From Sphingomonas sp. SCN 67-18 (GTDB lineage: Bacteria; Pseudomonadota; Alphaproteobacteria; Sphingomonadales; Sphingomonadaceae), in the NCBI RefSeq assembly GCF_001724715.1, contig NZ_MEFG01000012.1, positions 1 through 64,000 of the forward strand: 64,000 nt of DNA, given 5' to 3'. Numbering within the stretch: position 1 is the first letter of the stretch; every line of letters begins with the position of its first letter. The notes beneath the pieces are model-generated. The model was not told where the DNA came from and did no database searches. It saw only the letters and a program-made list of their open reading frames with translations. A program made the position numbers and the translations under genes. This document shows positions 4,851 through 57,115 of the stretch, one piece after another.

Positions 4851-5636
4851 TCAGGATGCGGAGGCGACCGGATCGACGCCTTCGGCGCGCGGCTTGCGGC
4901 CGCGGCGCTTGGGCGCGGGCGCTTCCCCGCCATCGTCGCCGTTCAGCGGCTCATCCTTGGCGAGCGCGGGCGGAAGCCGATCGATCTCGATGGAGCCGTC
5001 AGCCTGCCCGTCATCCTCCGCCGGACGCGCTTTGGGCGGGCGGCCGCGACGGCGCGGTTCCGCCCGGGCGTCGGCATCGGCCGGATCGGCGGAGGCGCGG
5101 GGTTGCTCGAAGCGATCCTCGTCCTGCCGCGCGCGCAGCGGCGGGCGCTGCGACTGGCGATTGCCGTCGGCGCGGTCACCGCGCTCATAGCGGTCATTGC
5201 CCTCGTCGCGATCGTCGTCGCGATCGTCGTCGCGCGCGGCGCGGCCATTGTCATAGCCGCGCGCGGGCTGGCGCTGGCCGCGATCATGGCCATTGCCGTT
5301 GCCGCGATCGTCGCCGTCATCGTCGGAGCGGACGTCGTAACCATCCTCATCTTCGTCATTCTGCGGACGACGATTGGGGTTGCTCTCTTCGAAGCGGGCG
5401 CGGCTTTCGCTCAGCACGCGGAAATAATGATCGGCGAACTGCAGATAATATTCGGTGTTGACCCGATCGCCCTGCATCTGCGCGTCGCGCGCCAGGGTCT
5501 TGTATTTTTCGTGGAGCTGGCTGGCATTGCCGCGGGCGCGGTTATCGATCCGGTTGCCCTGCTCGCGACCCTGGTTATTCGACGGCCGCTGGCCACCGCG
5601 ACCGCGACGGCGGCCGGTCTGACGATTGTTGATCAA
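4851..5636 (-). CDS. DUF4167 domain protein, RNA/DNA-binding-like, highly charged
   Basis: 261 residues. The N-terminus (1-40) is rich in Arg, Gly, Asn and Gln; residues 41-75 (LHEKYKTLARDAQMQGD then YYLQFADHYFRV) are the conserved DUF4167 core found across alphaproteobacteria. Residues ~90-190 are disordered Asp/Arg/Gly repeats. Two AT-hook-like motifs occur near the end, RRRGRPPKA (195-203) and KRRGRKPRA (243-251). Function is unknown; composition suggests nucleic-acid binding, an inference. It follows prmC on the same strand after a 276-base gap, a common alphaproteobacterial order. Confidence 0.85.
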   Translation of the reverse strand: MINNRQTGRRRGRGGQRPSNNQGREQGNRIDNRARGNASQLHEKYKTLARDAQMQGDRVNTEYYLQFADHYFRVLSESRARFEESNPNRRPQNDEDEDGYDVRSDDDGDDRGNGNGHDRGQRQPARGYDNGRAARDDDRDDDRDEGNDRYERGDRADGNRQSQRPPLRARQDEDRFEQPRASADPADADARAEPRRRGRPPKARPAEDDGQADGSIEIDRLPPALAKDEPLNGDDGGEAPAPKRRGRKPRAEGVDPVASAS

Positions 5637-5912
5637 CGTTCTGCTGTCCTCGTCTTAAAGCACAAACTCTTTCATCATGGTCCGGCATTGCGGATGCGCG
5701 CCCACCGGGGGAGCCGCGATCGCCAAGGGGCATCCGCGTGCTTCCGCCATCTGCCAGAGCTGCTGACCTTCAGCGGCTTCGTGACTGTGGGGGTCGGGCG
5801 AGCCGGATCTTCACGCATCGATGCCGAAGACCGCTCATCCGTGCGCTCCATCTAGCGACTCGATCGTCAAAATCCAAGCGGAAATATGCGTCTTCTTTGT
5901 TGCTTTCCCGTT

Positions 5913-6734
5913 TCAGCGCGCGGTGACGACCAGACAGCGGTCACGCCCGGCCAGATCGGCCATGCAGCGCACCTCCAGAGCCTGCGCGGCAATCAGCGCG
6001 GTGACCGCCGCGCGCTGCGTCGCGCCGATCTCGATCGCGGCCATGCCACCGGGCGCGATCAACCGGGGCAGCATGGGCGCGATCCTGCGATAATCGTCCA
6101 GCCCGTCCACCCCGGCGAACAGCGCGCCATGCGGCTCATGCCGGGCTACGGCCTCGGGCAACTGCGCGCCAGCCTCGATATAGGGCGGATTGCACAGCAG
6201 CAGGTCGAACGGCCCGGCCACCCCTTCCGCCCAGTCGCCGACCAGGAACAGCGCGCGCGCCGCCATGCCCAGCCGGGCGGCGTTGCCCGCCGCCACCGCC
6301 AGCGCGGCCGGCGAGCGGTCGATCCCGACGCCCTGCGCGCCGGGCCACTGGTCGAGCGCCGCCAGCAGCAACGCGCCGGAGCCGGTGCCCAGATCGATCA
6401 CGCGCGACGGCTCCCGTCTGCCGAAATGCGCCACCGCCGCGTCGATCAGCGTCTCGCTGTCCGGGCGGGGAATCAGCACGTCCGGCGTCACCCGCAGCTC
6501 GATGGTCCAGAACGCCTTGCTGCCGAGAATATAGGCGATCGGCTCCGCCGCCAGCCGCCGCGCCACCAGCGCCTCGAACCCGTCCGGCACGGCGCGCTCG
6601 CCCGCCGCGCGCAGCAACAGCGCCTCGCGCGTCACACCCAGCGCGTGGGCGAGCAGCAATTCCGCGTCCAGCCTGGGGGTATCGCTGACGGCGGCCAGCC
6701 GCGCGGCGGCCCCGGCCAGCGCCCGGTCAATCAT
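5913..6734 (-). CDS. prmC: Peptide chain release factor N5-glutamine methyltransferase
   Basis: 273 residues. Methylates the glutamine of the GGQ loop of release factors using S-adenosylmethionine. Visible landmarks: helical N-terminal domain, PRPDSE (89-94), SAM-binding DLGTGSG (114-120) and the catalytic NPPY (182-185). The chosen ATG overlaps the end of prfA by 8 bases; an upstream start would give nine extra residues not typical of the family. Directly following prfA, its substrate, is the classical arrangement and supports the call. Confidence 0.95.
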
Positions 6735-7806
6735 CGAGATTGGCGAGCCGCGAAGCCTCATCCTCGGCGATCAGCGCGCCGATCAGCTCGTCCATCTGCC
6801 CTTCCAATATTTCAGGCAGGCGGTGAAGGGTCAGGCCGATGCGATGGTCGGTCACCCGCCCCTGCGGGAAATTATAGGTGCGGATGCGCTCTGACCGGTC
6901 GCCCGATCCGACCATGGACTTGCGCGCGCCGGCCCGCTCGCTGTCCAGCCGCGCGCGCTCCAGCTCGTAAAGGCGGGTCCTCAGCACCTTCAGCGCCTTC
7001 GCCTTGTTCTTGTGCTGGGATTTCTCGTCCTGCTGGATGACCACCAGCCCGCTCGGCAAATGGGTGATGCGGACGGCGCTGTCCGTGGTGTTGACGGACT
7101 GGCCGCCCGGCCCGGATGAGCGATAGACGTCGATCCGCAGATCCTTCTCGTCGATCTGCACGTCGACATCCTCCGCCTCGGGCAGCACCGCCACCGTGGC
7201 GGCGGAGGTGTGGATGCGCCCGCCGCTTTCGGTCGCCGGCACGCGCTGCACCCGGTGGACGCCGCTTTCGAACTTCAGCCGGGCGAACACCCCCTTGCCG
7301 GTGACGCTGGCGACGACTTCCTTATAGCCGCCTATGTCCGCCGGGCTGGCGGAGATCAGCTCGACCCGCCAGCCGCGGTCCTCGGCATAGCGGCTGTACA
7401 TGCGGAACAGGTCGCCCGCGAACAGCGCCGCCTCGTCGCCGCCCGTCCCCGCGCGGATCTCAAGCATCGCCGCACGCTCGTCCGCCGCGTCGCGGGGCAG
7501 CAGCGCCACCGCCAGCGCCCGCTCCGCATCGGGAAGCACGGCGCGGATATGTTCGGCTTCCTCGGCCGCCATCGCGCGGATCTCAGCTTCCGCATCCTCA
7601 TCCACGGCCAGCGCCAGCAACACGTCCACCTCGGCTCGCAACCGCCGCACCTCGGCCGCCGCGGCGGCCACCGGCTCCAGCTCCGCATAATCCTTGGAGA
7701 GCGCGACGAACTTGTCCGGCGGCAGATCGCCCCGCGCCATCGCCGCCTGCATTTCATCGCGCCGCGCCTCGATGGCGGCGATCCGTTCGGCGGAGATCAC
7801 CGTCAT
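6727..7806 (-). CDS. prfA: Peptide chain release factor 1
   Basis: 359 residues, normal for RF1. Recognises UAA and UAG and triggers peptide release on the ribosome. The GGQ catalytic loop is at ~234-236 within [12 protein letters not shown], and the codon-recognition region carries RVPATES (~188-194), the PxT type that marks RF1 rather than RF2. N-terminal coiled region is intact. It overlaps hisS upstream (ATGA) and prmC downstream, forming a three-gene translation operon. Confidence 0.97.
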
Positions 7807-9053
7807 GCGGCGCGCACCGCCCGGACAAGATCGGCCAACGGCACCGTGCTCTGCGCGCCGCTGGCAAGATCCTTCACGGCGGCGACGCCCTGCGCCAGCT
7901 CGTCCTCGCCAAGGATCACCGCCAGTCGCGCGCCGCGCGCATTGGCGCGGGCCAGCCGCTTCTTCATATTGCCCTTATAGGCCATGTCGCAGGCGATGCC
8001 GGCCCGGCGCAGATCAGCGACAAGCCCCAGCGCCGCCGCCTCGGCCGCCGCGCCCATCGGCACCATAGCGACATCGACGACATCTGCCGCCGGCGCATCG
8101 ATCAGCATCGCCAGCCGTTCGATGCCGGCCGCCCAGCCAACCGCCGGCGTCTCCGGTCCGCCCAGCGCGGCCATCAGCCCGTCATAGCGGCCGCCGCCCA
8201 GCACTGTACCCTGCGCGCCCAGCCGGTCGGTGACGAATTCGAACGCGGTGTGCCGGTAATAATCCAGCCCGCGCACCAGCCCGCCATTGCGGGTCCAGGC
8301 GACCCCGGCCGCGTCCAGCCCCGCCGTCACCGCCGCGAAGAAATCCGCCGCCTCGGCCGAAAGATAATCGTCGATCGGCGGAGCGGTGTCCGCCACCGGG
8401 CGGTCGCGCGAGTCCTTGCTGTCCAGGATCCGCATCGGGTTGCGTTCCAGCCGGTCGAGGCTGTCCTCGGACAGGCTGGCCCGGTGCTCGCTGAAATGGG
8501 CGATCAGCGCGGCGCGCCAGGCCGCCCGCGTCGCCGCGTCGCCCAGCGTGTTCAGCTGCAGCGTGACGCCGTCAGCCACGCCCAGTTCCTTCAACAGTTG
8601 ATCGGCGAACACCAGCAGCTCCACGTCCGCGGCCGGCTCCGCCGCGCCGATGATCTCGGCATCGAGCTGGTGGAACTGGCGGAAGCGCCCTTTTTGCGGC
8701 CGCTCATAGCGGAACAGCGGGCCGTGCGTCGCCAGCTTCAGCGGCGCATATTGCTGCCAGCCCTCGGTCAGGTAGGCGCGGGCGATGCCGGCGGTGAATT
8801 CCGGCCGTAGCGTCAGGGAATCGCCGCCGCGATCCTCAAAGCTGTACATTTCCTTCGACACCACGTCGGTGGTTTCGCCCAGCGAGCGGGCGAACACCGC
8901 CGTCGCCTCGAACACCGGCACCTCGATGCGCTGAAACGCATAAAGCCGGCGCACGCGATCGAACGTCGCGGCGACATGGGCGAAACGATCAGCGGTTTCA
9001 CCCAGCATGTCCTGCGTGCCGCGAATGCGATTTGGGGTTTGTTGGCCTGCCAT
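7803..9053 (-). CDS. hisS: Histidine--tRNA ligase
   Basis: 416 residues. Class II synthetase charging tRNA-His. Starts with the family's RGTQDML segment; motif 2 appears as [16 protein letters not shown], the histidine-binding region as [12 protein letters not shown], and motif 3 as [13 protein letters not shown]. The anticodon-binding domain is at the C-terminus. It is first in the hisS-prfA-prmC operon, overlapping prfA by 4 bases, and divergent from the DUF1345 gene across about 50 bases. No leader peptide or attenuator is visible in so short a gap. Confidence 0.97.
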
Positions 9054-32571: not shown

Positions 32572-33060
32572 ATGGCGAAGGCGCCACCAGTGATCGGCAT
32601 CATCATGGGTAGCCAGTCCGACTGGGAGACGATGCGCCACGCCGCCGACACGCTGGCCGCGCTCGACATTGCCCATGAGGTGCGGATCGTCTCGGCGCAC
32701 CGCACGCCGGAGCGGCTTTACGATTACGCGCGGACCGCGGTGGACCGGGGGCTGGCGGCGATCATCGCCGGGGCCGGCGGCGCGGCGCATCTGCCGGGCA
32801 TGACGGCATCGATGACGCGCCTGCCGGTGCTGGGCGTGCCGGTGGAATCCAAGGCGCTGAGCGGCATGGACAGCCTTTTGTCGATCGTCCAGATGCCGGG
32901 CGGCATCCCGGTCGGCACGTTCGCCATCGGCAAGCCCGGGGCGATCAATGCCGCGCTCTTCGCCGCCGCCATGCTGGCCAATGGTGATGCGGCGCTGGCC
33001 GGGCGGCTGGAGGCGTGGCGCGCGGCGCAGACCGCCAATGTGGCGTCAACGCCCGAATGA
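32572..33060 (+). CDS. purE: N5-carboxyaminoimidazole ribonucleotide mutase
   Basis: 162 residues, class I Pur[13 protein letters not shown] binds the nucleotide phosphate, [13 protein letters not shown] carries the catalytic histidine, and [11 protein letters not shown] and [10 protein letters not shown] are conserved loops. Rearranges N5-CAIR to CAIR in purine synthesis. The ATG chosen matches family starts; the frame is open upstream but unrelated. Stop overlaps purK (ATGA). Confidence 0.97.
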
Positions 33061-34133
33061 ACACGCTGCCGCCGGGGTCAACGATCGGAATCGTCGGGGG
33101 CGGCCAGCTGGGCCGGATGCTGGCCATGGCCGCCGCGCAGCTCGGCTATCGCTGCCACATCTATTCGCCCGGCGCATCCTCGCCCGCCGGAGAGGTTTCG
33201 GCCAGCGTCACCAGCGCCGATTATGACGATGCGGCGGCGCTCGCCCGCTTTGCCGACGCGGTCGACGTCGTCACCTATGAATTCGAGAACATCCCGGTCG
33301 CGGCGATGCGGGTGCTGGAAGGGCGCGCGCTGATCCGCCCGTCGATCGCGGCGCTGGAAACGGCGCAGGACCGGATCGCGGAAAAAAGCTTCGTCGCCGC
33401 GCTGGGCGGCCGCACCGCGCCCTGGGCGGCGGTGCCGGACCGGGCGGCGCTGGACGGCGCGCTGGCGGCCGTGGGCACGCCCGCCATATTGAAGACGGTG
33501 CGGATGGGCTATGACGGCAAGGGCCAGGCGCGCATCCTCGGCCCGGCCGATGCCGACGCCGCCTGGCAGGCCATTGGCGGTCGGCCGGCGATCCTCGAGG
33601 GCTTCGTTTCCTTCGACCAGGAATTCTCCGTCATCGTCGCGCGCGGCGCGGACGGCGCGGTGCGCGCGTGGGACGTGCCGGAAAACGTCCATCACAACGG
33701 CATTTTGGCGACATCGACCGCGCCCGCCGGCGGGCTGATCGCCGAACAGGCGGCGGCGGCCACCGCGCTTGCCGGGCAGATCGCCGCCGCGCTGGATTAT
33801 GTCGGGGTGCTGGCCTGCGAATTCTTCGCCACCGCCGACGGTCCGCTGTTCAATGAAATGGCGCCGCGCGTCCACAATAGCGGCCATTGGACGACCGAAG
33901 GCGCGGTGACGTCGCAATTCGAGAACCACATCCGCGCCGTGGCGGGGCTGCCGCTGGGCGATACCGCGCTGACCGCGAAGCGGGTGGTGATGACCAACCT
34001 GATCGGCGACGCATTCAACCAGTGGCCGGCGCTGCTCGCGGAGCCGGCGGCCCATGTCCACCTTTACGGCAAGAGCACGGTGCGGCCCGGCCGCAAGATG
34101 GGGCATGTCACCCGGCTGTTCCCGGAAGGCTAG
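33057..34133 (+). CDS. purK: N5-carboxyaminoimidazole ribonucleotide synthase
   Basis: 358 residues, ATP-grasp enzyme making N5-CAIR from AIR, bicarbonate and [19 protein letters not shown] is the N-terminal signature; ATP-grasp residues appear in [14 protein letters not shown] and [16 protein letters not shown], and [14 protein letters not shown] is the PurK-specific motif. Works directly with PurE, to which it is translationally coupled by the 4-base overlap. Confidence 0.97.
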
Positions 34134-50507: not shown

Positions 50508-52005
50508 GCGGCAGCGCGTCGCCCTGCCTGCGGCGGAACAGCACGCGATCCTCGCTGGTGAAACCCTTGAACCAGATGATCGCCCCATAGCTGAGCAGGA
50601 TGAGCGGCGCGCCGAGGCTGAGTTCCAGCCATTCCAGCGAAGGCGGCAGCGAGGTGGCCGCATAGCCGACGACGGTGGCCGCCGCCGCCGCCCAGACCAG
50701 CGCCCAGCGCCAGGGCGAAACCGGCGCGCCGAGCAGGCGGGAGAGCAGCCGCGCCTTCAGCACCGATGAGAAGCCGAGCGCGATCGGCAGGGCCAGCGCC
50801 GGCCCCGCCGCCTGGACGACGACGGGCAGGGCCAGCGCCCGCGCGCCGAGGATGAAGGCGAAGCTGAGCAGAATCTGCAGCGTGATTGTCGCCATGGAGA
50901 TCATCAGGTTGCGGTGACGGGCGATGTAGATGAGCGCCGATTCCGACACCACGGCGGTGGCGGCGACCACCTCCGCCGCCAGCAGGAAAGCGAGCGCGCC
51001 GGTGCCGCTGACGAATTCCTTGCCGGCAAGGCCCATCACCGCCTCGCCCGGTATGGCCAGCGCCAGCGCGATGCCGGCCTGCGCGGCGATGATCCAGAAG
51101 CCGACCTGGCGGACCTGCTGGGCCACCGCCGCCTTGTTGCCCGCCTCCAGATTCTGGGTGATGACCGGGCCGAGAATGGGATCGAAGCTGGTCTTCAGCT
51201 TCTGCGGCAGGGTGACGATCTGCTGCGCGACCCAATAGATGCCGACGATGGCCGGGCTGAAGAACAGGCCGAGGATGAAGCGGTCGACATTGCGGGTGCC
51301 CCATTCGATGGCGTCCGCGGCGGCCAGCGGGATGTTGCGCCGGGTCAGCCGCGCCAGCTCCACCGGCGCCGGCCGCCAGCCGTGCGGCAGGCCATATTCG
51401 CGGATGAAGGGGATGAGCGAGGCGAGCAGCGCCGCGACCATGGACAGCGCATAGGCGATGATCAGCCCGTCGCGCTGCGAATAGAAATAGAGCGCCCCGG
51501 CGGCGATGCTGATCGTCCACGGCTCCACCACCGCGCGGGCCCGCACCGTCGCCGCCACGTTGAGCCGATAGGCGAGCGCCGCCAGCGACACGTCCGACCA
51601 GGCGAAGGCGAAGATGGTGAGCGGCAACAGCTGCTCCAGCCCGTTGATGCGGCTGTTGGGGAACATGATCTGCGGCAGCGCGGCCAATATGCCCGCAGCG
51701 ATTGCGGAGGCGATGCCGGCGATCAGCAGCGCGTCCCACACGATGTGGACGTGCGGCCGCTCATTTTTCGACAACTGCTGGGCAAGCCCCCGCTTCAGCC
51801 CCAGCGTGGCCAGCTGGGCGGCGAATTCGATGACCAGGATCGCCAACGCGAAGCGGCCGAGCGCATCCGGCCCGTACAGCCGTCCGGCGATGAACAGGAA
51901 AGGGATGCGCGCCAGAAGGCGCAGGACGAAGCCGAAGAAATTGGTGCGTCCGCCCTTGGCGAGCGCCTGGATATCGCCATTGCTGTCGCCGGCGGCGTTG
52001 CTCAA
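50479..52005 (-). CDS. Polysaccharide/lipid flippase, MOP superfamily
   Basis: 508 residues with about 12-14 membrane helices and short loops, in the pattern of Wzx-type polysaccharide transporters ([28 protein letters not shown] near the start, [18 protein letters not shown] mid-way). Would flip lipid-linked sugars across the inner membrane. No glycosyltransferases lie beside it, so the substrate is unknown. Its ATG overlaps the polA stop by 4 bases; the 3' end overlaps purH. Confidence 0.85.
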
Positions 52006-54755
52006 TGCGCCGCACCCCAGCTCGGCCCGGTGCCGATTTCCACGCCCAGCGGCACGCTGAGCGTCACCGCCGGTTCGGCGGCGCCCGCCATCACCGCGCG
52101 GATCACCGCGCTCGCCGCCTCGACATCGCCTTCGGGCAATTCGAACACCAGTTCGTCATGCACCTGCAGCAACATGCGGACATGGCCCAGCCCGGCCGCG
52201 GCCAGCGCCGGCATCATCCGCGCCATGGCGCGCTTGATGATGTCCGCGCTGGTGCCCTGGATGGGGGCGTTGACGGCGGCGCGCTCCGCCCCCTGCCGCT
52301 CGTGCTGGACCTTGGAATGGATGCGCGGGAAATGCGTCTTGCGGCCGAACAGCGTGGTGGTGAAACCCTGTTCGCGCGCATGGGTGAGCGTTTCGGCGAT
52401 ATAGCGGTTGATGCCGGGGAAACGCTCGAAATAGCGGTCGATCATCGACTGCGCCTCGTCCGGGGTGACGTCAAGACGCCCCGCCAGCCCCCAGCGCGAG
52501 ATGCCGTAGAGGATGGCGAAGTTGATCGTCTTCGCCCGCCCGCGCGTTTCGCGGTTCACCGTGCCGAACAATTCCATGGCGGTCAGATTATGGATATCCT
52601 CGCCCCGCGCAAAGGCATCCTTCAGTGCGGGCACGTCGGCCATGTGCGCGGCCAGCCGCAGCTCGATCTGCGAATAATCCGCCGAAAGCAGGACATTGCC
52701 CGGCTCCGCCACGAAAGCGTGGCGGATGCTGCGCCCCATCTCCGTGCGGACCGGGATGTTCTGCAGATTGGGGTCGTTGGAGGAAAGCCGCCCGGTCTGC
52801 GCGCCGGTGAGCGAATAGCTGGTGTGGACGCGGCCGGTTTCCGGGTTGATCTGCGCTTGCAGCGCGTCGGTATAGGTGGATTTCAGCTTGGAGATCTGCC
52901 GCCAGTCCAGCACCTTGCGGGCGATCTCGACGCCGCCGGCCGCCAGCCGCTCAAGCTCGTTGACATCGGTGGAATAGACGCCGCTCTTGCCCTTGCGCCC
53001 GCCCTTCAGCCCCATGCGCTCGAACAATATGTCGCCCAGCTGCTTGGGGCTGCCGATGGTGAAGGGGGTGCCCGCCAGCGCGTGAATCTCCCCCTCCAGC
53101 GCCAGCATCTGCGCCGCGAATTCGGTGGAAAGCCGGGCCAGCTCGTCCCGGTCCACGCGGATGCCGTGCTGTTCCATGGCGGCGATCACCGGCACCAACG
53201 GCCGATCCACCTGCTCATAGACGCGGGTCGCGCCTTCCGGCGACAGGCGCGGTTTCAGCCGCCGCCACAGCCGCAGCGTCACGTCCGCATCCTCGGCGGC
53301 ATAGCGCGTCGCATCCGCCACATTGACCTGATGGAAGCCGAGCGCCGCCTTGCCGGTGCCGACCACATCCTTGAAGGCGATGCAATCATGGTCGAGATGG
53401 ATCTTCGCCACCTCGTCCATGCCATGGCCGTGCAACCCGGCATCGAGATCGAAGCTGATGACGATACTGTCGTCGATCGGCGCGAGGATGACGTCATGAC
53501 GGGCCAGCACCGTCATGTCATATTTCAGATTATGGCCGATCTTAAGCACCGCCGGATCGGCCAGCATCGGCCGCAGCCGGGCGATGGCATCCGCCGTGTC
53601 GATCTGCACCGGCGTTTCGGCCAGCAGGTCGTGTCCGCCATGGCCGAGGGGAATGTAGGAGGCGGCGTTGGGCGCGGTCGCCAGGCTGATGCCGACCAGC
53701 CTGGCGCGGGTGGCGTCGAGATTGTCCGTCTCCGTATCGATGGCGACCAGCCCCTGCGCCGTCGCCGCCGCGATCCAGCGGTCCAGCGCGTCGAGCGTGG
53801 TCACCATCTCATAGCCCGCATGGTCTATCGGCGGATCGGCCTCCAGCACCGGCGCGGCGCCTGCGGGCGGAGCGGGCGCCTGCGCCGCGGCGGTCCCCAA
53901 TTTGGCGAGCAGCGACTTGAAGCCGTGATGTTCCAGAAAGGCGCGCAGCGGTTCCGGCGGGATGCCCTTCATCGCCAGATCGTCGAGCGGATCGGGCAGC
54001 GGCACATCGTCACGCAGCGTCACCAGCACGCGCGACAGCCGGGCCTCCTCGGCATGGGCGATCAGATTGTCGCGCATTTTGGACGGCTTCATCGCGGGGG
54101 CGGCCGCCAGCACCGCATCGACATCGCCATATTCCGCGATCAGCTTCGACGCGGTCTTGGGGCCGATGCCAGGCACGCCGGGCACATTGTCCACGCTGTC
54201 GCCCATCAGCGCCAGCACGTCGCCCAGCCTGTCCGGCAGCACGCCGAATTTTTCCACCACATGGTCCGGGCCGATCCGCCGGTCGTTCATCGTGTCCAGC
54301 ATGTCGATGCCCGGCTCGATCAGCTGCATCAGATCCTTGTCGGAGGATACGATGGTGACCGTCCAGCCAGCGGCCAGCGCGGCCTTGGCATAGGATGCGA
54401 TGATATCGTCCGCCTCGAACCCGTCTTCCTCTATGCAGGGCAGCGAAAAGGCGCGGGTGGCGTCACGGATCATCGGGAACTGGGGGACCAGGTCTTCCGG
54501 CGGCGGCGGCCGGTTGGCCTTGTAGCGATCATAAAGGTCGTTGCGGAACGTCTTGGACGATTTGTCGAGGATAACCGCCAGATGGGTCGGCCCGTCCGCC
54601 TTGTGCAGCGCGTCCGCCAGCTTCCACAGCATCGTCGTATAGCCATAGACGGCGCCCACCGGCTCGCCCCGGATATTGGTGAGCGGGGGCAGCCGATGAT
54701 AGGCGCGGAAAATATAGCCCGAGCCATCGACGAGGTAGAGGTGATTGGATGCCAT
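52002..54755 (-). CDS. polA: DNA polymerase I
   Basis: 917 residues. N-terminal 5'-3' exonuclease (about 1-290; YLVDGSGYIFRAYH, EADDIIASYAK, GDSVDNVPGVPGIGPKTA). Proofreading exonuclease appears intact: AIDTETDNLDATRARLVGI near 337. Polymerase motifs A (SADYSQIELR, near 691), B (RGRAKTINFAILYGIS) and C (VHDELVFE, near 864) are present. Okazaki fragment and repair synthesis. The ATG at MASNHLYLVDG is the right start; longer frame upstream crosses the divergent hydrolase. Confidence 0.97.
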   Translation of the reverse strand: MASNHLYLVDGSGYIFRAYHRLPPLTNIRGEPVGAVYGYTTMLWKLADALHKADGPTHLAVILDKSSKTFRNDLYDRYKANRPPPPEDLVPQFPMIRDATRAFSLPCIEEDGFEADDIIASYAKAALAAGWTVTIVSSDKDLMQLIEPGIDMLDTMNDRRIGPDHVVEKFGVLPDRLGDVLALMGDSVDNVPGVPGIGPKTASKLIAEYGDVDAVLAAAPAMKPSKMRDNLIAHAEEARLSRVLVTLRDDVPLPDPLDDLAMKGIPPEPLRAFLEHHGFKSLLAKLGTAAAQAPAPPAGAAPVLEADPPIDHAGYEMVTTLDALDRWIAAATAQGLVAIDTETDNLDATRARLVGISLATAPNAASYIPLGHGGHDLLAETPVQIDTADAIARLRPMLADPAVLKIGHNLKYDMTVLARHDVILAPIDDSIVISFDLDAGLHGHGMDEVAKIHLDHDCIAFKDVVGTGKAALGFHQVNVADATRYAAEDADVTLRLWRRLKPRLSPEGATRVYEQVDRPLVPVIAAMEQHGIRVDRDELARLSTEFAAQMLALEGEIHALAGTPFTIGSPKQLGDILFERMGLKGGRKGKSGVYSTDVNELERLAAGGVEIARKVLDWRQISKLKSTYTDALQAQINPETGRVHTSYSLTGAQTGRLSSNDPNLQNIPVRTEMGRSIRHAFVAEPGNVLLSADYSQIELRLAAHMADVPALKDAFARGEDIHNLTAMELFGTVNRETRGRAKTINFAILYGISRWGLAGRLDVTPDEAQSMIDRYFERFPGINRYIAETLTHAREQGFTTTLFGRKTHFPRIHSKVQHERQGAERAAVNAPIQGTSADIIKRAMARMMPALAAAGLGHVRMLLQVHDELVFELPEGDVEAASAVIRAVMAGAAEPAVTLSVPLGVEIGTGPSWGAAH

Positions 54756-54849: not shown

Positions 54850-55719
54850 ATGACCGCGAACCCGATCGACCGCCGCCGCCTGATCGGCATGGGCCTTGCC
54901 GCGATGGCGCTGGCGGTGCCCGGCGCGGCGGGTGCCGGAAGCCCGCCTTTCGCCTCCCGCCGCATCTCCGTGGTGACGCGGGGGGCGGGGCCGGACGTGA
55001 TCCTGATCCCCGGCCTCGATTCATCCCGCTCCATATGGGCCGGCACGGTCGCGGCGGTGCCCGGCTATCGCTATCATCTGGTCCAGCTCGCCGGTTTCGG
55101 CGGCACCGCGCCCGAGGACAATGGCACCGGCCCGGTCATCGCCCCGGTGGTGGACGAGATTGCCCGCTATATCCGCGCCGCCGGGCTGAGGTCCTCGGCA
55201 ATCGTCGGTCATTCGATGGGCGGCAGCATGGCGATGATGCTCGCCGCCCGGCACCCCGCGCTGGCCGGGCGGATCATGGTGGTGGACATGCTGCCCGCCC
55301 CGGCCGGGCTGTTCGGCGCGGCGCCCGCCAGCCTCGGCCCGCTCGCAGGGCGGCTGCGCGACACGCTGACCGGAACGGCGGAGGGGCAGCGGATGATGGA
55401 TTCGCTGATGCGCCTGTTCGGCGACGGTCCGGCCGTGGCGGCGGCGGAGCGCAGCGACCGTGCCGTCACCGCCAACGCCCTGCACGATCTGGCGACCATC
55501 GACCTGACCGGCGCGCTCCCCCGCATCGCCGCGCCGATTACCGTCGTCTATGCCAATGCCGAGTCCCAGCCGCTGATCGACCGCACCTACAGGTCCGCCT
55601 ATGCCGGCGCGCGCGGCGCAACGCTGATCGCCATCCCGCAGAGCGGCCACATGGTGATGTTCGACCAGCCCGCGCGTTTTCAGGCCGCGCTGCGGACGTT
55701 TCTGAAGGGCGGGAATTAG
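54850..55719 (+). CDS. Alpha/beta hydrolase, exported
   Basis: 289 residues. Starts with a Tat-like signal (DRRRLIGMGLAAMA, cut near AGA, residue 29). Nucleophile S122 in VGHSMGGSM, oxyanion region LIPGLDSSRSIW, and catalytic His in PQSGHMVMFDQP near 266. Broad esterase/lipase fold, substrate unknown. Divergent from polA. A second, degraded copy of its last 22 codons lies about 830 bases downstream beyond the phyH gene. Confidence 0.88.
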   Translation: MTANPIDRRRLIGMGLAAMALAVPGAAGAGSPPFASRRISVVTRGAGPDVILIPGLDSSRSIWAGTVAAVPGYRYHLVQLAGFGGTAPEDNGTGPVIAPVVDEIARYIRAAGLRSSAIVGHSMGGSMAMMLAARHPALAGRIMVVDMLPAPAGLFGAAPASLGPLAGRLRDTLTGTAEGQRMMDSLMRLFGDGPAVAAAERSDRAVTANALHDLATIDLTGALPRIAAPITVVYANAESQPLIDRTYRSAYAGARGATLIAIPQSGHMVMFDQPARFQAALRTFLKGGN

Positions 55720-55731
55720 GGCGAAAAGCCC

Positions 55732-56418
55732 CTATACACCCAACCATTCCAGCCCGCCCGGAAGGTCATCAGCCGCGAAGTCGACCTGCAGGACGCGACG
55801 GTGAACCGGGTTGGAAGCAGCTTCCGATGCGTGGAGTATCGGCGTGGCATAGAGCCAAACATCCCCGGCCTCAGCAAGACATGCCCGGACACCGCATTGC
55901 CGTACGACCTCCCCGACAAGCTTTGTCGGCACCTTTCCGCGCCTATACGAGCCCGGTGCGATCAGAAGCGGAGCGTTATCGGGGCCAACGGGATCGAGAT
56001 GAACCCGCAAAGTCACCATATGCGCCAACAATGCGAACGGCGGCGCAACATGCTGCATCCCGCCCTTGGTGGTCCATGGACCGAAGCCATCGACTTCAAT
56101 CTTTCGCCGGACGCAGATGGTCCGATCCTGATGCCACGCTAAAGACCAGTTGGTGTCAGCGGTCTTGTCGAACAATATGGCTCGCACGGCACGGGTTCTC
56201 GGCCCCAATATGGCTGCCGCAATCGACCCGACTGGACCTTTGCCGGCAAGATATGGGCGCAGACCATCTATTCCCCGGATGCGAATCCCGGCGCGATCTG
56301 GCGGCAAGTGGGCCAGAAGCGCCTGTAGACAATCCAGCGCACCGCACACTGCGCCACAAAAGCGTTGCGCACCGTCACATTGAAAGCTCAGCGGAGCGGA
56401 AAGCGGAAACTCCTCCAT
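55732..56418 (-). CDS. Phytanoyl-CoA dioxygenase (PhyH) family protein
   Basis: 228 residues from the ATG at MEEFPLSAP (a GTG 11 codons earlier is possible). Fe(II)/2-oxoglutarate oxygenase residues are intact: H96 and D98 in WHQDRTI, H196 in ILHASEA and Arg near 207-208. The ending DLPGGLEWLGV also suits this bacterial subgroup. Codons such as TGT, CTA, GCT and GTT are frequent here but scarce in neighbours, suggesting recent acquisition. It stands on the opposite strand between the hydrolase and its 3' remnant. Substrate unknown. Confidence 0.88.
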   Translation of the reverse strand: MEEFPLSAPLSFQCDGAQRFCGAVCGALDCLQALLAHLPPDRAGIRIRGIDGLRPYLAGKGPVGSIAAAILGPRTRAVRAILFDKTADTNWSLAWHQDRTICVRRKIEVDGFGPWTTKGGMQHVAPPFALLAHMVTLRVHLDPVGPDNAPLLIAPGSYRRGKVPTKLVGEVVRQCGVRACLAEAGDVWLYATPILHASEAASNPVHRRVLQVDFAADDLPGGLEWLGV

Positions 56419-56474
56419 ATGCTTAGCCTTAACCGACGAACGCGAGATCACAACGCTGGCAACAGGCCGGCCCC

Positions 56475-56540
56475 GGCCATATGATGATATTCGACCGGCC
56501 TGCGCGCTATCAGGCGGCGGTACGGGGGTTTCTGAAGGGC
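56475..56540 (+). pseudogene. Remnant of a hydrolase 3' end
   Basis: Translates as GHMMIFDRPARYQAAVRGFL then KG, against GHMVMFDQPARFQAALRTFL then KG at the end of the intact hydrolase (55645-55710). By hand count 54 of 66 bases are identical, with many third-position changes, so it is a diverged paralogue, not a fresh duplicate. No start codon or upstream part survives. It marks the right edge of the phyH segment. Confidence 0.8.
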
Positions 56541-56584
56541 AGATTCCGGATCACCGCCTCCGGACGTTCGTGGAGAAACCAGCG

Positions 56585-57115
56585 ATGGCGAAACTCATCT
56601 ATGCCTTGAACGTCTCGCTGGACGGCTATGTCGATCATATGGAATTTGCGCCGGATCCGGTGCTGTTCCGGCATTTCGTCGACGATGTGGGCAGCGTGGC
56701 CGGCAGCATTTACGGCCGGCGGATGTATGAGGTGATGCGCTATTGGGATGAAGACCGGCCCGAATGGGGTGAGGCGGAGCGCGACTATGCGATCGCGTGG
56801 CGGCGGCAGCCCAAATGGGTGGTGTCCCGGTCCCTGGCGTCCGTCGGGCCCAACGCCGCGCTGATCCGGGACGATATCGCGGCGGCGATAGCCGGGCTGA
56901 AGCGCGAGATTGACGGGGATATCGAGGTTTCCGGCCCCGCGCTCGCGCAGAGCCTGGCCGATCTGGACCTTGTCGACGAATATCGGCTCTATTTCCATCC
57001 GGTCGTGCTGGGGCGCGGCAAGCCGTTTTTTGCGGGCACGCGGGCGCGGCTCCGCCTGGTCGCCCATGACCGCATCGGCGCGGACGTGATCAGACTGACC
57101 TATGTCCCCGCCTGA
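56585..57115 (+). CDS. Dihydrofolate reductase / RibD C-terminal family protein
   Basis: 176 residues from MAKLIYALNVSLDGYVD, the usual family start (GGAG lies upstream; a GTG five codons earlier is possible). SIYGRRMYEVMRYWDED and PKWVVSRSL, then EVSGPALAQSLADLDLVDEYRLYFHPVVLGRGKPFF are the RibD_C/DHFR-like landmarks that bind NADPH. Such stand-alone proteins are of unknown substrate. Follows the hydrolase remnant closely and might once have been in its operon. Confidence 0.9.
   Translation: MAKLIYALNVSLDGYVDHMEFAPDPVLFRHFVDDVGSVAGSIYGRRMYEVMRYWDEDRPEWGEAERDYAIAWRRQPKWVVSRSLASVGPNAALIRDDIAAAIAGLKREIDGDIEVSGPALAQSLADLDLVDEYRLYFHPVVLGRGKPFFAGTRARLRLVAHDRIGADVIRLTYVPA

Follow-up and report, generated by a model that had tools for sequence, protein, structure and literature searches.

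The stretch of DNA analysed here, 64,000 nucleotides from a sphingomonad genome and referred to below as the window, contains an intact alpha/beta hydrolase gene, a phyH-type gene on the opposite strand and, just beyond phyH, a short sequence that resembles the end of the hydrolase. How did the end of one gene come to lie on both sides of another? A sequence-only reading of the window suggested either that a tandem hydrolase had been lost around phyH or that recombination had occurred at the hydrolase 3' end as it does at integration sites; it favoured incoming DNA that had brought its own gene tail, or an old paralogue.

A duplicated hydrolase end beside phyH

The genome comprises 3.22 Mb in 79 contigs. 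From left to right, the locus contains polA (minus strand), the hydrolase (plus), phyH (minus), the remnant of the hydrolase end (plus) and a RibD_C-domain gene (plus); yggS, thiE, a porin-like gene, a DUF3576 gene and leuS follow (Table 1). The products of yggS and thiE belong to the Pfam families Ala_racemase_N and TMP-TENI, respectively, and the porin-like gene scores just below its Pfam cut-off. The assignment of leuS and the name yggS are based on the sequences themselves.

Table 1 Features of the hydrolase-phyH locus in the window
Feature	Position	Strand	Basis or remark
Source: Sphingomonas sp. SCN 67-18, contig NZ_MEFG01000012.1 (the window)	1-64,000		
polA, DNA polymerase I	52005-54755	-	Pfam DNA_pol_A, E 3.4e-144; divergent from hydrolase
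Intact alpha/beta hydrolase, SGHM type	54850-55719	+	PF12697, E 8e-20
Copy 1 of duplicated hydrolase tail, within intact gene	55644-55710	+	55/67 identical to 56474-56540
Junction, end of hydrolase homology to phyH stop	55711-55731	.	Sequence and flank listing
phyH, Fe(II)/2-oxoglutarate dioxygenase-like	55732-56418	-	PF05721
phyH upstream region, 55 bp, promoter-like	56419-56473	-	Flank listing of phyH loci
Remnant, diverged last 22 hydrolase codons (GHMMIFDRPARYQAAVRGFLKG)	56474-56540	+	Alignment and protein search
RibD_C-domain gene	56585-57115	+	PF01872; start 45 bp past remnant

The two tail copies align without a gap. The alignment scores 74, compared with a maximum of 28 among just under 2000 random segments of the window, and a protein search of the whole genome independently recovered 56472-56540 as a match to hydrolase residues 265-287 (70% identity, E 3.6e-4). 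In view of this score and the independent protein match, the duplication is not a product of chance. The earlier count by hand of 54 matching bases in the 66 at 56475-56540 was reproduced exactly by alignment. Identical runs between the copies are no longer than 13 bp. The homology stops after AAGGGC, beyond which the copies have nothing in common; the intact hydrolase ends GGG AAT TAG, codons that lie outside the homology, and the junction that follows the homology contains, besides its stop codon, a short inverted repeat of GGGC/GCCC. The remnant lacks a stop of its own, and its frame continues to a stop at 56607. At its other end, 55 bp away from the ATG of phyH, it begins abruptly at a GH motif that includes the catalytic His.

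When 20 codons are compared, the remnant and the intact tail have 48 of 60 bases in common and, in translation, 14 of 20 residues. The best match among 97 other distinct hydrolase tails reaches 51 of 60 bases with the intact tail and 46 of 60 with the remnant, and pairs of hydrolases with 45-60% identity in the body of the protein have mean tail identities of 0.64-0.66. Because the agreement between the copies is close to that of such pairs, the copies appear to differ about as much as orthologues from separate genera do and would fit an origin from two different orthologues. The 67 bases of the remnant are too short to be placed on a tree. By codon position, the 12 differences between the copies are distributed 3, 3 and 6, a pattern that does not tell decay from older divergence.

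Two further readings of the tail sequences were set aside. A gapped extension of the remnant into 56413-56473 had a P of ~0.08 in shuffles and 0.07 with random window segments, and the stretch also overlaps, by eye, a motif found upstream of phyH in other genomes. The intact hydrolase tail gave no convincing sign of intragenic recombination or foreign origin in a test with 71 proteins, three of which were overlapping copies of the hydrolase from the window itself; the tails closest to it were 0.90 and 0.85 identical (P 0.014 and 0.03, before correction for multiple comparisons).

phyH is a horizontally moving accessory gene

The phyH product matches Pfam PF05721 with 26.0 bits, above the curated cut-off of 22. 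Its gene starts with an ATG at 56418, and a GTG further upstream, at 56451, also lies in the open frame. A WHQD motif is present in 72 of 72 relatives, a distal HAS pattern in 65 and a following Arg pattern in 66 of the 72; these represent the metal-binding HxD and the distal H. No NCBIfam match was found, and a PADLOC search for a defence function returned no match at E 0.01. By eye, a (C/G)(A/G)TTG motif recurs upstream of phyH in the flank listing across loci. phyH is probably a stand-alone, ordinary 2-oxoglutarate dioxygenase gene with a predicted promoter of its own.

phyH is the only gene in the insert of ~760 bp between the tail copies, in which no recombinase or integrase was found. 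It has a GC content of 0.606 and a GC3 of 0.617, compared with GC3 values of 0.890 for the hydrolase, 0.853 for polA, 0.797 for RibD_C, 0.809 for yggS, 0.864 for leuS and 0.874 for thiE. In an index resembling codon adaptation, its value is lower than that of every one of the window's 45 reference ORFs, which were themselves picked by a GC3 above 0.8. These values bear out the earlier remark that the insert uses codons uncommon nearby; as also remarked, it lies on the opposite strand.

Matches to phyH occur in 72 of 397 genomes of the family (E 1e-5), at one place per genome, and in 83 of 396 genomes at the level of the order (E 1e-20), a set that overlaps the first. With both 1.3-kb flanks compared, 81 phyH loci represent 68 different contexts, a number that may be slightly high because loci with short flanks were counted as separate contexts. 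On a tree of 72 phyH proteins, the genus label changes 25 times among the 13 genera with at least two rows; the minimum possible is 12 and the mean after shuffling is 34. One strongly supported clade, which consists of loci L208, L203, L200 and L201, spans three genera. Two of its members, L200 and L201, occupy different sites in one genus and have only 788 bp in common, extending from -63 to +43 around phyH. The patchy presence, the many contexts, the genera broken up on the tree and the DNA common to L200 and L201 together establish that phyH is accessory, moves horizontally and has an upstream region of its own. The composition of phyH, combined with its distribution and tree, identifies the insert as foreign DNA.

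The RibD_C gene is present in 21 of 397 family genomes (E 1e-25) and occupies 9 contexts in 12 loci. Roaming is therefore normal for accessory genes in these genomes and is not a peculiarity of phyH. No phyH match was found among 50,697 phage records, which argues against carriage by phages; six plasmid records contain matches, two of them at 60% identity or above. In six genomes (G057, G171, G203, G010, G272 and G184), the phyH match is split into two pieces that adjoin or overlap each other on a single contig, a pattern that suggests that the gene has been inactivated repeatedly. At another site than the window's, in G122 (L228), phyH again lies beside polA, by eye directly past its 3' end.

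The site in relatives and a second stranded gene end

Hydrolase matches were found in 85 of 397 family genomes (E 1e-30); the genus of the window is represented by one genome only in the comparison set. Among the 30 best-matching hydrolase loci, which were mapped, polA and the hydrolase occur together and divergently in 23, and seven have no polA in the available sequence. Beside polA, relatives of the window hydrolase are 43-55% identical to it. The comparison of this region across genomes, which the sequence-only reading had proposed, found phyH in 0 of the 23 polA-linked loci over the 1.4-7.5 kb of sequence past the hydrolase. RibD_C, yggS, thiE, the porin-like gene, the DUF3576 gene and leuS were likewise found in none of the 23 over the same distance, and the site in the window is thus a synteny break. 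The opposite outcome, in which relatives uniformly carry phyH here and its composition is normal, was looked for and was not found.

Two hydrolases stand beside polA in 3 of the 23 loci (L034, L088 and L100). Each pair consists of one SGHM-type and one SAHF-type enzyme, and no tandem in the 23 loci has both members of the remnant's SGHM type. Since both copies in the window are SGHM, the tandem state seen in relatives does not supply the remnant. The pair in L088 (G275) is adjacent and that in L100 (G299) is separated by a 1.3-kb gap. In L034 (G021; 5601-8812), an opposite-strand transporter-like gene, presumably of the MFS type, separates the two hydrolases, which differ in type.

Flanks were compared with each other at 79 phyH loci, 2 of the 81 being too short. 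A stranded gene end was found only in the window and at L208 in G353, which leaves 1 of 78 when the window is set aside. In G353, phyH has an intact sirtuin gene on one side and a partial, stranded sirtuin start on the other, a case equivalent to that of the window. The same-genus genome G322 has one sirtuin match. The stranded start of G353 is 90% identical to G322 over 120 bp, and the sirtuin body and flank are 93% identical over 2.6 kb; the first codons of the intact G353 gene align with G322 over only 55 bp (84%) and include extra in-frame codons that are missing from G322 and from five other sirtuins compared. Judged by this comparison, the stranded piece is the resident sirtuin's own start. 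The start in use on the intact gene is probably foreign, and the gene resembles a fusion of a foreign start with a native body. By eye, a patch of ~25 bp, GCACCGGATCGAGGA and on, is present at both G353 joins.

Ahead of the sirtuin gene, G322 is ~1.1 kb longer than G353. It therefore represents an empty site for phyH, but an imperfect one, which is a flaw in the analogy. Between a 157-aa gene and the sirtuin gene, G322 (L252, 3204-4306) has a regulator-like gene, which we take to be of the MarR/ArsR type, and a second small gene; G353 has 28 bp there. The sirtuin start in this genus looks like a recombination hotspot.

Gene-end copies at only 2 of 79 loci rule out target duplication as a general rule of phyH insertion, and two cases are too few to establish any rule. 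In G363, phyH lies in ~1.2 kb of extra DNA, the flanks of which are 68 bp apart in the same-genus G385; comparison with G385 revealed no flanking repeat or duplication at this insertion. At L219 and L278, the protein-level matches found are short or weak, at a distance of 0.3-0.6 kb.

Origin of the locus and phyH insertions elsewhere

On balance, and narrowly, we consider it probable that the locus arose by homology-assisted horizontal capture of phyH, in which the incoming hydrolase end came to lie on the intact gene and the remnant is the tail of the resident gene. The incoming fragment would have come from another sphingomonad, with phyH adjoining the end of a hydrolase gene homologous to the resident one. 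On one side, a homologous join inside the resident hydrolase would have kept the gene intact; on the other, a join lacking long homology, at a point inside the resident tail immediately ahead of the phyH promoter, would have stranded that tail beyond phyH, where it would then have lost its function. With one-sided homology considered, the window has two hydrolase tails and the intact sirtuin of the G353/G322 comparison looks fused, one genome standing for the window's genus. We infer from the G353 locus that events in the window ran the same way, and likewise which of the two copies was resident and how the joins were made: because the stranded piece in G353 is resident, the incoming tail of the window would, by analogy, more likely be on the intact gene than in the remnant. 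The earlier proposal that incoming DNA brought its own gene tail thus gains from the foreign, mobile phyH and from G353.

The same duplication could have been left by a tandem hydrolase paralogue that once stood here and of which a deletion, during the capture of phyH or afterwards, spared only the tail. Tandem hydrolases beside polA do exist, and the opposite-strand gene between the pair in L034 also speaks for this proposal. Against it, the pairing of SGHM with SAHF in all three loci does not match two SGHM copies, and five SAHF-type tails beside polA agree with the remnant at 34-40 of 60 bases, compared with 48 for the intact window tail; we consider such a loss unlikely. Somewhat less likely still is a duplication of the target, in which phyH entered the hydrolase 3' end and 67 bp were copied; the two copies would have started out identical and diverged later. 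Such insertion with a long duplication of the target has been proposed for gene mobility (Nobusato et al. 2000, as cited in PMC3154945), and the citation concerns restriction-modification systems. As in the cases described there, a small gene unit in the window stands between direct repeats of a target, and the 67-bp repeat immediately flanks a compact one-gene insert. The far copy begins about where the DNA common to L200 and L201 ends, and the remnant is altered at two columns that are invariant among 12 hydrolases (M270 to I and F277 to Y), as decay predicts. However, the window copies are only 82% identical, and a divergence of 18% without any gap requires long decay. In G353, moreover, an in-frame block distinguishes the copies and it is the intact one that is atypical, an outcome that a simple duplication would not yield; the block points to two sources.

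Two other origins are far less probable than these. The remnant might be part of the right-hand block (RibD_C, yggS and onward), joined to polA and the hydrolase by a separate rearrangement that had nothing to do with phyH. The synteny break, with the right-hand genes in none of the 23 polA-hydrolase loci, is what such a rearrangement would leave, but in 11 other RibD_C loci no hydrolase from this family was found at a distance of up to 1.1-1.5 kb, and we give the idea very little weight. Least probable of all is integration by a site-specific recombinase that supplies a replacement gene end. Phages inserted in icd carry such an end, and the logic is the same, with a gene end restored and the native end displaced. 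Against this, the insert holds phyH and no integrase, the copies have no identical run above 13 bp, phage records contain no match, and phyH loci in so many contexts have no single common target. The comparison with integration sites that the sequence-only reading drew is hence unsupported, at least for the phage kind.

Capture of phyH with homology on one side, the reading that we prefer, has parallels. Homology-facilitated illegitimate recombination has been invoked for the T6SS effector-immunity arrays of Vibrio cholerae (PMC5361080, Sci Rep 2017). As described for these arrays, and as in our reading of the window, homology anchors one end of an incoming module while the other end is joined illegitimately, and a resident gene, or only its 3' end, is displaced to the far side of the insert. 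The cargo in the window is a lone dioxygenase-like gene; in V. cholerae, the retained pieces are mainly immunity genes. The position of the accessory genes phyH and RibD_C beside the core genes polA, yggS and leuS likewise resembles the horizontal-transfer hotspots that are described, together with recombination at the core genes beside them, in PMC5635113 (Nat Commun 2017). Events of this kind are known, and the window is likelier to be an ordinary, well-preserved example of them.

There is a slight chance that phyH, together with ~60 bp before and ~40 bp after it, forms a minimal mobile unit of one gene in sphingomonads, which lacks its own recombinase and moves by recombination at dispersed palindromic repeats or borrowed gene ends, remaking the gene that it enters by bringing a replacement terminus and stranding the native one. 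The minimal mobile element of Neisseria comprises single-gene cassettes that are exchanged between conserved genes by recombination. The window also has a single-gene cassette between conserved genes, but phyH changes site between genomes and does not alternate with other genes at one site. Stranded gene ends record the entry of a single foreign gene and can reveal which flank came along with it. Two such scars beside one mobile gene family, in two genera and at two unrelated targets, provide a concrete case in which to ask how lone genes that lack recombinases spread among sphingomonads.

Repeats of any kind that score at least 40 flank 5 of 79 phyH genes and 4 of 444 control ORFs (Fisher P 0.005; 0.02 without the window), which hints that phyH tends to sit between repeats. 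Three of the five loci (L203, L225 and L279) have dispersed repeats of palindromic appearance. In these, GTCCGC(...)GCGGAC repeats lie near phyH on both sides, and parts of the L203 stretch recur widely in its genome. The control scan also detected an ORF elsewhere in the window, at 33015-34133, that lies between imperfect direct repeats of ~56 bp each (score 42).
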